Shown: positions 35,024 through 40,243 of the stretch, in pieces
How the letters are laid out: each line of letters begins with the position of its first letter
Position numbering within the stretch: position 1 is the stretch's first letter
Assembly: GCF_000755245.1 (NCBI RefSeq)
Contig: NZ_BBMP01000022.1
Location: forward strand, 310,001 to 374,000
Reading direction: 5' to 3'
DNA length: 64,000 nt
From: Halococcus sediminicola
GTDB taxonomy: Archaea > Halobacteriota > Halobacteria > Halobacteriales > Halococcaceae
Made by a program: the position numbers and the translations under genes
The notes under the pieces: model-generated
The model's database searches: none
The model's input: only the letters and a program-made list of their open reading frames with translations
What the model was told of the DNA's origin: nothing

Positions 35024-35824
35024 ATGGTGGATGCTACCATCGACGTCGTCGACCGTGGCGTGCTCGAAACTGACCTGAACTACCTCGTCGAGGGCAACAC
35101 GCTCGGCAGCCACGACGAACCGAACCCCGACACCGACTACGTCGAAATCCCCGTCCCGAACTTCGTCATCGACCATCCCGAAGGCACCATCCTCTGGGAC
35201 ACCGGCTCGCATCACGAGGCCGGCGAGGGCCACTGGCCCGACGGACTCGTCCAAGCCTTCTATCCGAAGGACGCCCACGAACACCGCCTCGACGACGACC
35301 TGGAGGACGCGGGCTACTCCATCGACGAGATCGACTGCGTGTTCCAGAGCCATCTCCACCTCGACCACGCGGGCGGCCTCGAGTTCTTCGACGGGACGGA
35401 TACTCCCATATTCGTCCACGAAGAGGAACTCAAATTCGCCTACTACAGCGCGAAATCCTCGGAGGGGAGTGCGGCCTACGTCCTCGACGACTTCGACCAC
35501 GATCTCAACTGGCAGGTGCTCCACCGTGAGGAGGAGACCCACTTTACGGATGTCGAGTTCATCCGCCTGCCCGGTCACACGCCAGGAATGACCGGCACGA
35601 TGATCCATCTCGACGACGCTACCGTGGTCTTCGCCGGTGACGAGATCTACATGTCCGAAAACTACGACGACGAGATCCCGCTGGGCGCGGGCTTGCTCTG
35701 GAGCCACCGTCACTGGTTCCGGAGCATGAAGCTCCTGAAGGAACTCGAACGCCGCCACGACGCCGACATCGTCTACGGCCACGACCCCGACCAGTTCGCG
35801 GCCATCCAGGACGGGTGGTCATGA
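35024..35824 (+). CDS. Metallo-beta-lactamase-fold lactonase (AHL/gamma-butyrolactone lactonase type)
   Basis: Hydrolase of 266 residues with the dinuclear zinc motif SHLHLDHAGG (His110, His112, Asp114, His115). Downstream metal ligands are in LPGHTPG, FAGDEIY and YGHDPDQF. The pattern is that of the N-acyl-homoserine lactonase family, which includes AiiA and the Agrobacterium gamma-butyrolactone lactonase BlcC/AttM. The start follows a short gap from divergent aglM. The stop overlaps the alcohol dehydrogenase start (ATGA), which favours a catabolic lactone substrate whose open hydroxyacid goes to the next enzyme. That substrate is an inference. Confidence 0.88.
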   Translation: MVDATIDVVDRGVLETDLNYLVEGNTLGSHDEPNPDTDYVEIPVPNFVIDHPEGTILWDTGSHHEAGEGHWPDGLVQAFYPKDAHEHRLDDDLEDAGYSIDEIDCVFQSHLHLDHAGGLEFFDGTDTPIFVHEEELKFAYYSAKSSEGSAAYVLDDFDHDLNWQVLHREEETHFTDVEFIRLPGHTPGMTGTMIHLDDATVVFAGDEIYMSENYDDEIPLGAGLLWSHRHWFRSMKLLKELERRHDADIVYGHDPDQFAAIQDGWS

Positions 35825-37134
35825 GCTACGACCGCTCGGTGTCGGCTCCCGAGCACACGATGGAGCCGGAGACGGTCTGGCACCTCCAGATGCCCCAGAT
35901 CAGGTTCGGCCGGAACGCCGTCGGTGAACTCGGCTATCAACTCCGTGACCTCGGCGTCGCCGAGAACGCCCACGGACTGGTCATCACCGACCAGAACCTC
36001 ACCGACCTCGGCCACGCCGAGCGCGTGACCGACGAACTCCACGACGCCGGCTTCGAGACCGACACCTACGACGACGTCGAGCGCGAACCGTCCATCGCCG
36101 ACATCGACGATTGCCTCTCGTTCGTCCGTGACGAGCAGGGTGAGGGGGGCTACGATTTCTACGTGGGATTCGGCGGCGGGAGCTGCATGGACACGGCGAA
36201 GGCGACCCGTGCGGTCATCGAAAACGGCGGCGGAGCGCTCGATTACGTCGCCGAACCCACGGGCGAGGGCGAGACGCTCACCGAATCGAACGTGCCCCTG
36301 ATACTGATGCCGACGACTGCGGGCACAGGAGCCGAAACCTCGCCGGTGGCGATACTTTCCGTCGAGGAAAAGGAGGTCAAAGAGGGGATTTCGAGCAATC
36401 ACGTCCGGGCGGACGCCGCCGTCTTGGACCCCACCTTCACGACGACCCTTCCCCCGGACATCACGGCGAAGACGGCGATGGACGCGCTCGGCCACGCCAT
36501 CGAGGGCTACACGACGCACGAGTTCGACAGCCTCCTGCACGCGGGCGACCCGGCCTCGCGACCCACCTACGCCGGCCGCACGCCCGTCACGAACCAGTTC
36601 TCGGAGGCCGCGATCGACCTGCTCTCCTCGAACGTTCGACAGGTCGTGAACAACGGCGACGACATCGAGGCCCGCTCGGCGATGTTGCAAGGGGCGCTGT
36701 TCGGCGCGATTGCAGGGCTTACGGCGGGCGCGACGCTCTGTCACGCGATGGCCTACCCGGTTGGCAATAGCTACCATACCTTCCACGGCGAGACCATCGC
36801 GGTGCTCACGCCCGCGAGCACGCTCGGCTACAACGCCGCGAGCAACCCCGAACGGTTCGCGCGTCTCGCCGAGATGCTCGGGGCCGACACGTCGGGGATG
36901 AGCACCCGCGACGCGGCGATGGAAGCCAAATCGGAGTATATCCGCCTCCAGCGCGACCTGAACGTGCTGCCGAGTGGACTCGCCGACCTCGCGGGCATCA
37001 CCGAGGACGACCTCAACTGGCTCGCCGAACAGACCACCGAAACCCAGCAGCGACTGCTCCGGACGAACCCGCGGCCCGTGACGACCGAGGACGTCCACGA
37101 CATCTTCGCCGACGCACTCCACAACTGGGAGTAG
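35821..37134 (+). CDS. Iron-containing alcohol dehydrogenase, hydroxyacid-oxoacid transhydrogenase-like
   Basis: Group III alcohol dehydrogenase of 437 residues. The NAD-binding loop is GFGGGSCMD (116-124), followed by MPTTAGTGAE. Likely metal ligands are Asp221, His225 (DALGHAIEGY), His308 and His322 (CHAMAYPVGNSYHTFHGE). Overall pattern and length match the hydroxyacid-oxoacid transhydrogenase group, whose known substrate is gamma-hydroxybutyrate; BlcB/AttL of Agrobacterium is a functional comparison. Overlap with the lactonase gene by ATGA indicates a coupled pathway. Exact substrate unproven. Confidence 0.88.
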   Translation: MSYDRSVSAPEHTMEPETVWHLQMPQIRFGRNAVGELGYQLRDLGVAENAHGLVITDQNLTDLGHAERVTDELHDAGFETDTYDDVEREPSIADIDDCLSFVRDEQGEGGYDFYVGFGGGSCMDTAKATRAVIENGGGALDYVAEPTGEGETLTESNVPLILMPTTAGTGAETSPVAILSVEEKEVKEGISSNHVRADAAVLDPTFTTTLPPDITAKTAMDALGHAIEGYTTHEFDSLLHAGDPASRPTYAGRTPVTNQFSEAAIDLLSSNVRQVVNNGDDIEARSAMLQGALFGAIAGLTAGATLCHAMAYPVGNSYHTFHGETIAVLTPASTLGYNAASNPERFARLAEMLGADTSGMSTRDAAMEAKSEYIRLQRDLNVLPSGLADLAGITEDDLNWLAEQTTETQQRLLRTNPRPVTTEDVHDIFADALHNWE

Positions 37135-37299: not shown

Positions 37300-38157
37300 A
37301 TGACTATGAGTTCGATGATCAACGACGCCGACGGACGATCGCCGCGCGAGGATGTCGAGTTCCTCGCGCGCTCGGCCCACCGCGTCGGCGTGCTCGGCAG
37401 GCTGGCCGACCGACCCCACGAGCGGGTCGAACTACGCGAGGCCACAGGTGCATCCTCACCCACGCTCGGGCGCGTGCTCGGCGATTTCGAGGGACGGCGC
37501 TGGGTCGTCCGGCAGGGCCACCGATACGAGCTCACGCCGCTTGGGGAGTTCGTCGCCGACCGTTTCGAGGACCTCCTCGACGCGATGACGACCGAACGAA
37601 AGCTCCGGGACGTCTGGCGATGGCTACCACGCGAGATGGAGGGGTTCTCGGTCGAACTGTTCGCCGATGCGGTCGTTTCGTATCCCGGCCCTCGCTACCC
37701 CTACGAACCGGTCGAGCGCGTCACGCACCTGATAGAGCGAACGGACGCGATGTTCGGCTTCGGCACCACCGTCTTCAAGACCATCAACGTCGAGGCGGTC
37801 TGTGAGGGTGTGCTCGACGATATGACGTACGAGTACATCTACTCGCCCGACGTGTTGGAGGCGACCGTCGCCTGTGCTCCCGAGCGGGTCGCCGCCGCGG
37901 CCGCGCGCGATAATTGTACTATTCTCGTCCACGACGCGCTGCCCGACGAGGACCGCTGTGGTCTCGGCATCTTCGACGACTGTATGGGGATCTGCTGTCA
38001 CGACTCGGCAACGGGGATGCTGGAAGCCATCGTCGACACTGAATCGGCCGCCGCACGCGAGTGGGCCGTCTCAGTCTACGACCGCTATCGGGCCGAGGCC
38101 AGACCGCTCGACCCCAAGGAGGCAGAGGCGCTCGTTTCGTCACACCTCGCCTCGTGA
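37300..38157 (+). CDS. Winged-helix transcriptional regulator with FilR1-type C-terminal domain
   Basis: Regulator of 285 residues. The N-terminal winged HTH spans about 18-85 (HRVGVLGRLADRP, ASSPTLGRVLGDFEGRRWV). A middle helical linker follows. The C-terminal domain of about 150 residues has the pattern of the methanogen filament regulator FilR1 (DUF1724-like), a probable small-ligand sensor, including ILVHDALPDEDRCGLGIFDD. It is the nearest regulator to the cupin and flavin-oxidoreductase genes and the best candidate to bind their shared operator. That assignment is inference. Confidence 0.86.
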   Translation: MTMSSMINDADGRSPREDVEFLARSAHRVGVLGRLADRPHERVELREATGASSPTLGRVLGDFEGRRWVVRQGHRYELTPLGEFVADRFEDLLDAMTTERKLRDVWRWLPREMEGFSVELFADAVVSYPGPRYPYEPVERVTHLIERTDAMFGFGTTVFKTINVEAVCEGVLDDMTYEYIYSPDVLEATVACAPERVAAAAARDNCTILVHDALPDEDRCGLGIFDDCMGICCHDSATGMLEAIVDTESAAAREWAVSVYDRYRAEARPLDPKEAEALVSSHLAS

Positions 38158-38191: not shown

Positions 38192-38229
38192 TTTCACGCC
38201 GTGAAATATTTCACTAGAAATCTATACTT
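38192..38229 (+). promoter_or_regulatory. Operator/promoter copy 1 (TTTCAC triple half-site plus TATA)
   Basis: TTTCACGCCGTGAAA (38192-38206) is a perfect 6-bp-arm inverted repeat. GTGAAATATTTCAC (38201-38214) makes a second overlapping one, and CTATACTT follows as TATA box. It differs at three of 38 positions from the copy at 38768-38805, with identical spacing. Transcription should start near 38251, just before the GGAGGAG at 38253. Confidence 0.8.
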
Positions 38230-38266
38230 CATCCCCGAGTCTATCCGTGTGTGGAGGAGATGACCA

Positions 38267-38650
38267 ATGCGACAAGCGAACGAAGAGATACCGACCAAGA
38301 TCGACATCCCGAACGCCGTCGTACAGCAACAGACGGGGTTCGGCGATGCGAGCGAGTACGGCGAAATGGCCGCGGAATATTTCCGTATCACCGGCGGGAC
38401 CGATATCTCGCCACTACTCGAAGGACTGCCGGACGACCTGTGTCAGGTTCCACACTGGGGCTACATCGTCGATGGAGCCATCAACGTCCGCTACACCGAC
38501 GGCACCGAAGAGGACAGTACGGCCGGTGAGTTCGTCTACTGGCCGCCGGGACACACCGTTCGGGCCGACGAGGACTCGGAGCTTCTCCTGTTCAGTCCGA
38601 ACGAACACGAAGCCGTCTTCGACCACATGCTGGAGAAGATGAACGAGTAG
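38267..38650 (+). CDS. Cupin-domain protein
   Basis: Protein of 127 residues with a single cupin barrel in its C-terminal two-thirds (PHWGYIVDGAINVRYTDG, then GEFVYWPPGHTVRADEDSEL). A histidine in each of the two motifs is kept (PHWG, PGHTV), so metal binding is possible, but the full G(X)5HXH consensus is not present. A Shine-Dalgarno GGAGGAG lies 7 bp upstream of ATG 38267. Expression should be shared with the flavin oxidoreductase because both have the same 38-bp operator/promoter. Function not determined. Confidence 0.82.
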   Translation: MRQANEEIPTKIDIPNAVVQQQTGFGDASEYGEMAAEYFRITGGTDISPLLEGLPDDLCQVPHWGYIVDGAINVRYTDGTEEDSTAGEFVYWPPGHTVRADEDSELLLFSPNEHEAVFDHMLEKMNE

Positions 38651-38767
38651 TCCCCGGTCAGCAACACCTCTTTTTCGATCGATGCCGAACGGCTACCCTA
38701 ACAACTGATGCCGGCTCGTTTGCCTGTATTACCCACCGAGATCGTGGCCTCTCACAGAGACGAGCGT

Positions 38768-38805
38768 TTTCACACCGTGAAACATTTCACTAGGAATCTA
38801 TACTT
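38768..38805 (+). promoter_or_regulatory. Operator/promoter copy 2 (TTTCAC triple half-site plus TATA)
   Basis: TTTCACACCGTGAAA (38768-38782), third half-site TTTCAC (38785-38790) and CTATACTT (38798-38805) repeat copy 1 with only three substitutions: one in the first spacer, one in the second spacer and one upstream of TATA. All half-site bases are unchanged. It drives the flavin oxidoreductase, whose GGAGGT ribosome site is at 38833. Confidence 0.8.
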
Positions 38806-38845
38806 TCCGCCGACGAGTAGTCACTTCTCGTTGGAGGTACCAGCG

Positions 38846-40243
38846 ATGGCAACAGAGCGACACCGACTGGACGAAACGGCAGTGAACGAGTTCGACGAGG
38901 GGTTCCGCGGGGAGGTCATCGGGCAGAAGGCGGCGGGATACGACGACGCGCGCGTGATATACAACGCGATGATCGACAAGCGCCCGGCGCTCATCGCGCG
39001 GTGTGTCGACGTCGCAGACGTGGTGGCGGCCGTGAACTTCGGCCGCGAGCACGACCTCGACATCGCGGTTCGCAGCGGCGGCCACAACGGTCCGGGTCTC
39101 GCGCTGGTCGACGACGGCATCGTCGTCGACCTCTCCGAGATGACCGGCGTCCACGTCGATCCGGAGGCGAAGACCGCACGGGTCGAACCCGGCTGCACGT
39201 GGGGTGACGTCGACCACGCGACCCACGCCTTCGGGCTGGCGACCGTCAGTGGAATTATCTCCACGACCGGCGTCGGCGGTCTGACGCTGGGTGGTGGGCA
39301 CGGCTACCTCACCCGAAAACACGGGTTGACCATCGACAACCTACTCTCGGCGGACGTCGTACTGGCCGACGGACGGCTGGTCCACGCGAGCGCCGATGAA
39401 CACGAGGACCTGTTCTGGGCGCTGCGCGGCGGCGGTGGCAACTTCGGCGTGGTCACCTCCTTCGAGTTTCGACTTCACGAGGTCGAAACGGTGGTCGCCG
39501 GACCGCTGTTCTGGCCGATCGAGGAACTCGAATCGACCATGCGCTGGTATCGTGACTGGCTCGCCCAGACACCGGAGGACGTCTACGCCTTCTATCTCGT
39601 CGCCGAGGTGCCGGGCGATCCGTTCCCGCCGGAGATCCACGGCGAGAACATCTGCGGGCTAGTGTGGTGTTATCTGGGACCGGAAGACGACATCGACGAG
39701 ATACTTCAGCCGGCACGCGAGGTCGCAGAGCCGCTGTTCGAACACGTCGGCGCGATGCCCTACACGGCGCTCCAGGGGTTGTTCGACGGTCTCTACCCGC
39801 CCGGCGACCAGTGGTACTGGAAGGGCAACTTCGTCGATGAACTGACCGACGACGCCATCGCCGAACACGAGCGCTTCGCCGCGGTGCCGACACCACAGTC
39901 GACGATGCATCTCTATCCCATCGACGGTGCCGTCCACGACGTCGCCTCCGACGCGACGGCGTGGAACAGGCGCGACGCCAACTGGTCGATGGTCATCGCG
40001 GGCGTCGCCCCGGACCCCGACGAGCGAGAGACCATCACCGACTGGGCCCGCGACTACTGGGAAGCACTACACACCCATTCGGCCAGCGGCGCGTACGTCA
40101 ACTTCCTGATGGAGGAGGGCGAAGAGCGGATTCGGGCCACCTACGGCGACAACTACGAGCGCCTCCAAGCGGTCAAAGCCGAGTACGACCCCGAGAACGT
40201 CTTTCACGTGAACCAGAACGTGAAGCCCGCACCGGTCGAGTGA
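38846..40243 (+). CDS. FAD-linked oxidoreductase with BBE domain
   Basis: Flavoprotein of 465 residues in the berberine-bridge/PCMH family. The FAD-binding domain has IAVRSGGHNGPG, whose His is the usual 8-alpha-histidyl FAD site, and GGLTLGGGHGYLTRKHGLT. The C-terminal BBE segment ends YDPENVFHVNQNV. These enzymes oxidise sugars, alcohols or alkaloid-like compounds with O2. A second covalent cysteine, as in GOOX-type enzymes, may be in VEPGCTWGDV. Start at 38846 follows the Shine-Dalgarno GGAGGT. The in-frame extension upstream covers the operator and is rejected. Confidence 0.9.
   Translation: MATERHRLDETAVNEFDEGFRGEVIGQKAAGYDDARVIYNAMIDKRPALIARCVDVADVVAAVNFGREHDLDIAVRSGGHNGPGLALVDDGIVVDLSEMTGVHVDPEAKTARVEPGCTWGDVDHATHAFGLATVSGIISTTGVGGLTLGGGHGYLTRKHGLTIDNLLSADVVLADGRLVHASADEHEDLFWALRGGGGNFGVVTSFEFRLHEVETVVAGPLFWPIEELESTMRWYRDWLAQTPEDVYAFYLVAEVPGDPFPPEIHGENICGLVWCYLGPEDDIDEILQPAREVAEPLFEHVGAMPYTALQGLFDGLYPPGDQWYWKGNFVDELTDDAIAEHERFAAVPTPQSTMHLYPIDGAVHDVASDATAWNRRDANWSMVIAGVAPDPDERETITDWARDYWEALHTHSASGAYVNFLMEEGEERIRATYGDNYERLQAVKAEYDPENVFHVNQNVKPAPVE

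Follow-up and report, generated by a model that had tools for sequence, protein, structure and literature searches.

A predicted TrmB-like local regulator in haloarchaea, with its probable upstream site and interchangeable target enzymes

Among the closest described archaeal systems, regulators of the TrmB type activate transcription from sites upstream of the BRE/TATA region and repress it from sites downstream (PMC4158304). GvpE, too, depends on position: its site must be close to the BRE, and the distance is critical (PMC4390858). FilR1 stimulated promoters in a reporter system (PMC3991700). For the HVO_A0261/FilR1-type family, the literature that we searched held no haloarchaeal member with a known DNA site. 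We found no paper on HVO_A0261 itself, and searches on FilR1 returned only methanogens, two-component surveys and unrelated uses of the name. A search on TTTCAC/GTGAAA gave the UV motif TTTCACTTTCA as its only relevant find. Here we examine a gene of this family, the DNA site that its product probably reads and the enzyme genes behind that site, all located in a 64-kb window (the whole stretch of DNA analyzed) of the Halococcus sediminicola genome.

The regulator gene (37300–38157, forward strand) encodes 285 residues, comprising an HVO_A0261_N winged helix and a FilR1_middle domain of phospholipase-D-like/TrmB-like fold (E-values of 1.2e-28 and 1.3e-22). Both curated cut-offs of the corresponding Pfam families were passed (PF25213, 99.3 bits vs. 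35; PF08350, 80.7 bits vs. 27). With respect to sequence, the protein belongs to these families and not to TrmB, as no Pfam TrmB match was found at an E-value of 0.001. The AlphaFold model (pLDDT 94) displays a winged helix whose recognition helix, assigned from the model's secondary structure, spans residues 53–65 (codons at 37456–37494, forward strand). The best Foldseek matches were TrmBL2 (E = 5.7e-11) and TrmB (6.6e-6). Structural alignment relates the second domain to phospholipase-D-like folds, among them the sugar-binding domain of TrmB (Z = 13.3, rmsd 2.6, 128 aligned residues). The model has the TrmB-family order, with a phospholipase-D-like effector domain after the winged helix, and its predicted fold is TrmB-like. 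Thiol sensing through conserved cysteines was considered and set aside; C220, C232 and C233 are kept in just 84, 78 and 68% of cases, too few for such a claim.

An initial annotation of this DNA had described two 38-bp elements, 576 bp apart and differing at three positions, as controlling a cupin gene and a flavin oxidoreductase gene beside a winged-helix regulator gene. The window coordinates and a whole-genome count bear out the description of the elements, and all of the named genes are present. The elements occupy 38192–38229 and 38768–38805 (576 nt from start to start), and their three mismatches, at positions 7, 16 and 27 of 38, all fall outside the half-sites. The pattern TTTCAC-N3-GTGAAA-N2-TTTCAC has two exact copies in the 64 kb; the chance figure for this 18-base pattern is 0.02 even with up to three mismatches. 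In the whole genome of 3.76 Mb, only the window copies match with at most one mismatch, and the next best match has two. A chance repeat is ruled out by the genome counts and the controls. The annotation had further reasoned from the conservation of all 18 half-site bases while the spacers vary. Although that observation is correct, the probability that three changes all miss the half-site bases is about 13% by our own arithmetic, C(20,3)/C(38,3); the argument is thus weak taken alone, and the cross-genome data carry the proof.

Each exact copy abuts the BRE/TATA region of one gene, and all features lie on the forward strand. At the cupin promoter, half-sites 1 and 2 (TTTCAC-GCC-GTGAAA, 38192–38206) constitute the predicted dimer site of the regulator; the third half-site (TTTCAC, 38209–38214) is conserved but unpaired with the helix change described below. 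The BRE/TATA region follows at a fixed distance (38217–38229), and a profile of 65 sites suggests a −10 TA at 38242–38243 and a transcription start near 38253. At the FAD-oxidase promoter, the equivalent features are TTTCAC-ACC-GTGAAA (38768–38782), the third TTTCAC (38785–38790), the BRE/TATA region assigned from the same profile (38793–38805) and, again by projection, a −10 TA at 38818–38819 with a start near 38829. The first target gene (38267–38650, forward strand) encodes a 127-residue cupin that matches Cupin_2 with an E-value of 1e-4, under the curated cut-off; a PDB sequence search with it gave no match. The second (38846–40243, forward strand) encodes a 465-residue FAD-dependent oxidase/oxygenase of the BBE/EncM type, with FAD_binding_4 and BBE domains. 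Its nearest PDB relative is EncM (E about 1e-108), the similarity extending over essentially the full length (residues 7–462). Directly upstream of the regulator gene on the same strand (35024–37134) are a lactonase-like gene of the metallo-beta-lactamase fold and an iron-containing alcohol dehydrogenase gene. We considered these as module members and rejected them: they are absent from the other regulator loci, bar one distant match of 32%.

Alignment of 65 sites on the motif revealed further conserved bases outside the half-sites, each block at a set distance: AG and A within positions 25–29, a TATA-like block at 32–36, CGTA at 49–52 and a purine at 62. These blocks presumably represent the BRE, the TATA box, the haloarchaeal −10 element (which we take the CGTA to be) and the start site. 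In this profile, the site sits directly upstream of the BRE with fixed spacing, as an upstream activator site would. The elements had been named a twin operator-promoter; their position suggests an upstream activating site more than a classical operator. Half-site 3 is unlikely to be a general promoter element in this genome, as a search for TTTCAC plus BRE/TATA matched exactly at the two window promoters only, with a single one-mismatch match, which is the control level. In three loci elsewhere (L136, L139 and L144), TTTCAC/GTGAAA is displaced by about 20 bp in the upstream direction and a TTTCAG half-site adjoins the promoter, which gives the appearance of a stretched spacing.

We searched 293 genomes of the order for the motif, allowing up to one mismatch and using the reversed pattern as a control. 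The motif occurred at 35 places in 31 of the 293 genomes; the reversed pattern occurred at none. The 3-kb loci around these places contain a regulator homologue (about 50–70% identity) in all cases except two (L008 and L009), and places outside the loci fetched first have a homologue, at least a partial one, nearby. Wider stretches around the two exceptions (L163 and L164) contained no regulator. The genes that follow these sites are nonetheless homologues of targets known from other loci; one encodes an FMO-type oxidoreductase (81%), the other a methyltransferase (about 60%). Conversely, a search that started from the regulator protein found homologues at E 1e-60 in 68 of the 293 genomes. Of 99 homologues, 56 had a same-strand site (at most three mismatches) no more than about 320 bp beyond the end of the regulator match, while 50 shuffled patterns yielded 0. 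In the cupin group, the arrangement differs: the cupin gene precedes the regulator, and the site lies ahead of the cupin, about 590–990 bp before the regulator. A contig scan with one protein as the query recovered only six relatives. Eleven fresh exact TTTCAC sites were also inspected; ten adjoin a regulator, and the helix, readable in nine cases, is S52/P54 every time. The remaining one (L205; G324:C1 near 3474321) lies upstream of a gene for a 248-residue membrane protein and has no regulator homologue within about 10 kb (19.5-kb stretch); this gene is a possible distant target.

The regulator's own promoter had been said to lack the motif, and 97 of the 98 loci tested agree: a same-strand site was found in 1. 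In that locus (L071), the best site is in the upstream intergenic region and faces the opposite way. The annotation's proposal would have been undermined by a motif that was widespread and unrelated to the regulator; in the 293 genomes, the outcome favors the proposal.

Comparison of the homologues showed that residues 52–54 vary along with the DNA site. Specifically, S52 (codon 37453–37455, forward strand) and P54 (codon 37459–37461, forward strand) covary with site bases 3 and 13. S52/P54 is paired with T at 3 and A at 13 in 58 loci, H52/S54 with G and C in 4, and no exception was seen. The base change that accompanies H52/S54 is symmetric and confined to half-sites 1 and 2. It keeps the palindrome of half-sites 1 and 2 and breaks that of 2 and 3; therefore, half-sites 1 and 2 are likely the dimer site, and a regulator dimer most likely reads this pair. 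Half-site 3 is conserved but obeys a different rule: it is still TTTCAC in the H52 group and is of the TGCA type in the FMO group despite an unchanged helix. Thus, of the claim that there are three half-sites of one kind, their presence is upheld, but they are not equivalent, since the first two track the regulator's helix and the third does not.

A forward test of this rule employed TTGCAC-N3-GTGCAA-N2-TTTCAC as the query in 391 genomes. It found 14 sites in 13 genomes (control, 0), three of the 14 being already in the first set, and all 14 adjoin an H52/S54 regulator, one apparently frameshifted. This copy, in L206 (2413–3175), has an intact variant site next to it. A broader contrast, made over a uniform 300-nt stretch, associated P54 or its absence with TTTCA- or TTGCA-type words, respectively, with a Fisher p of 2e-11 among relatives that are not independent. 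On the tree, the helix changed three times, and a sign test was not significant; the H52 group is a single clade, and the residue-base pairing hence represents few evolutionary events. Another clade, with SSST in the helix (L141–L170), has no TTTCAC pair; its promoters have TTGCA/TGCAA words and often retain a TCACTAG-like stretch ahead of the TATA box. The paired changes in helix and bases lend indirect support to sequence-specific DNA binding by the regulator. That one regulator serves both window genes, and that the adjacent FilR1-type protein is this regulator, is strongly supported by the co-localization in many genomes, by the regulator-less sites before the same enzyme families and by the covariation of helix and site. 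The pairing of regulator and site, along with the target genes, can be regarded as well supported by sequence.

Might the twin elements be merely a recent duplicate of one promoter, devoid of regulatory meaning? Their likeness does continue through both spacers and BRE/TATA (42 nt at 90% identity in a repeat search). Nevertheless, the same bases are conserved over 65 loci in many genera and another twin arrangement exists with different target genes, and we find such a reading hardly credible. It is also very improbable that the site is bound by some other, genome-wide regulator, with the neighboring protein a mere passenger. In favor of this idea, the regulator-site pairing rests on sequence comparison, half-site 3, which does not track the helix, may be bound by a different protein, and the TTTCACTTTCA motif occurs upstream of TATA boxes at UV-induced genes in Halobacterium (PMC2556686). 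But the present site is not scattered through the genome; it is nearly always beside the regulator, and the helix and base changes are paired, also in 14 of 14 forward-test cases.

The explanation that we favor, with a probability of roughly 0.7, is that the protein encoded at 37300–38157 acts as a local winged-helix regulator. Its dimer would bind TTTCAC-N3-GTGAAA through recognition helix 53–65 at the cupin and FAD-oxidase promoters and, positioned immediately upstream of BRE/TATA, would activate by helping to recruit TFB/TBP. The trigger would be a small molecule sensed by its TrmB-like phospholipase-D-fold domain (we infer ligand control), and the cupin and the FAD oxidase would be switched on together. 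Elsewhere among the haloarchaea, this pair of regulator and site precedes a different enzyme gene. Three points count against the explanation: a simple dimer does not account for half-site 3, the residue-base pairing reflects few evolutionary events, and the exact site in L205 has no regulator homologue within about 10 kb. Activation, while unproven, appears likelier than repression, by about two to one or better, because of the site's fixed distance upstream of BRE/TATA and the precedents of TrmB-type regulators, GvpE and FilR1. The same regulator and site could instead repress: bound by the BRE, the protein would hinder TFB/TBP loading until a ligand released it. The bacterial MarR/HxlR-type detoxification regulators offer a precedent, the winged helix is similar to those of YodB, HypR, QsrR, MhqR and MarR, the targets are of the kind that such repressors control, and the third half-site is close to the BRE. 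Bacterial MarR/HxlR-type repressors often control themselves; own-promoter sites are nearly absent here (1/98). Moreover, a fixed position upstream of BRE/TATA is the activating one for TrmB-type regulators (PMC4158304). Taken together, we deem repression unlikely, albeit a serious contender to ligand-triggered activation.

The genes behind the site or regulator are diverse. Cupin homologues follow in 11 other loci. In addition to cupins and EncM/BBE-type oxidases, the set includes various methyltransferases, FMO-type oxidoreductases, an alpha/beta hydrolase, a nitroreductase, and SCO4226-like, OsmC-like, SnoaL-like and CMD-family proteins. This assortment suggests small-molecule modification or detoxification as the common theme. 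In the second twin (L165:1–3171; G096:C176), exact sites precede genes for a 109-residue SCO4226-like protein and a methyltransferase-like protein, both sites being downstream of a partial regulator. The window's own genome has two further regulator paralogues (L088 on contig C1 and L092 on contig C25; about 59–60% identical), both with diverged sites of their own; one precedes a cupin gene and the other an FMO-type gene, an arrangement that fits insulated parallel modules.

The site has been kept over dozens of haloarchaeal species while the enzyme differs. The system may be described as a TrmB-like local regulator with an upstream site and exchangeable target enzymes. More tentatively, and with some doubt, we envision a portable switch, in which a readable helix-to-base code lets a single regulator lineage retain its address while the enzyme is exchanged, and paralogous modules within a genome thereby stay insulated; half-site 3, read by another protein or a further regulator unit, would make activation two-input. 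For the poorly studied HVO_A0261/FilR1-type family, these results provide a first predicted DNA address and targets listed across many genomes, as well as a residue-to-base rule that has withstood a forward test. The questions of ligand and activation become directly testable in ordinary laboratory haloarchaea, for which the modules also supply natural switches that may prove orthogonal to one another.

Several features of the locus recur in known systems. The Halobacterium UV-response motif TTTCACTTTCA likewise has a TTTCAC half-site upstream of a TATA box (PMC2556686), but it is a direct repeat without a palindrome at radA-type genes. Neither element here contains that repeat: TAG comes after the third TTTCAC, and N3-GTGAAA after the first. 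The activating site of haloarchaeal GvpE, its UAS, abuts the BRE at a critical distance (PMC4390858), a similar placement, whereas GvpE is leucine-zipper-like, and its site and fold are unrelated to those of the regulator here. FilR1 of Methanosaeta harundinacea, a reported promoter stimulator (PMC3991700), has the FilR1_middle domain in common with our protein. FilR1 acts on methanogenesis genes together with the histidine kinase FilI, while the regulator here adjoins one enzyme gene or two, and the neighbors examined included no kinase gene. The bacterial MarR/HxlR-type proteins YodB, HypR, QsrR and MhqR have a similar winged helix; regulators of this type exert local control of oxidoreductase-type genes. 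They are repressors and lack the phospholipase-D-like domain, unlike the regulator here. TrmBL1/Tgr of the Thermococcales and halobacterial TrmB (VNG1451C) do combine a winged helix with a phospholipase-D-like effector domain, as here, and their activating site has the same placement upstream of BRE/TATA (PMC4158304). The TGM palindrome of TrmBL1/Tgr, TATCAC-N5-GTGATA, compares with TTTCAC-N3-GTGAAA at our locus (PMC4158304). Unlike TrmB, the present regulator carries other Pfam domains, and in place of a sugar regulon its control would be local, at a single locus, with three half-sites.
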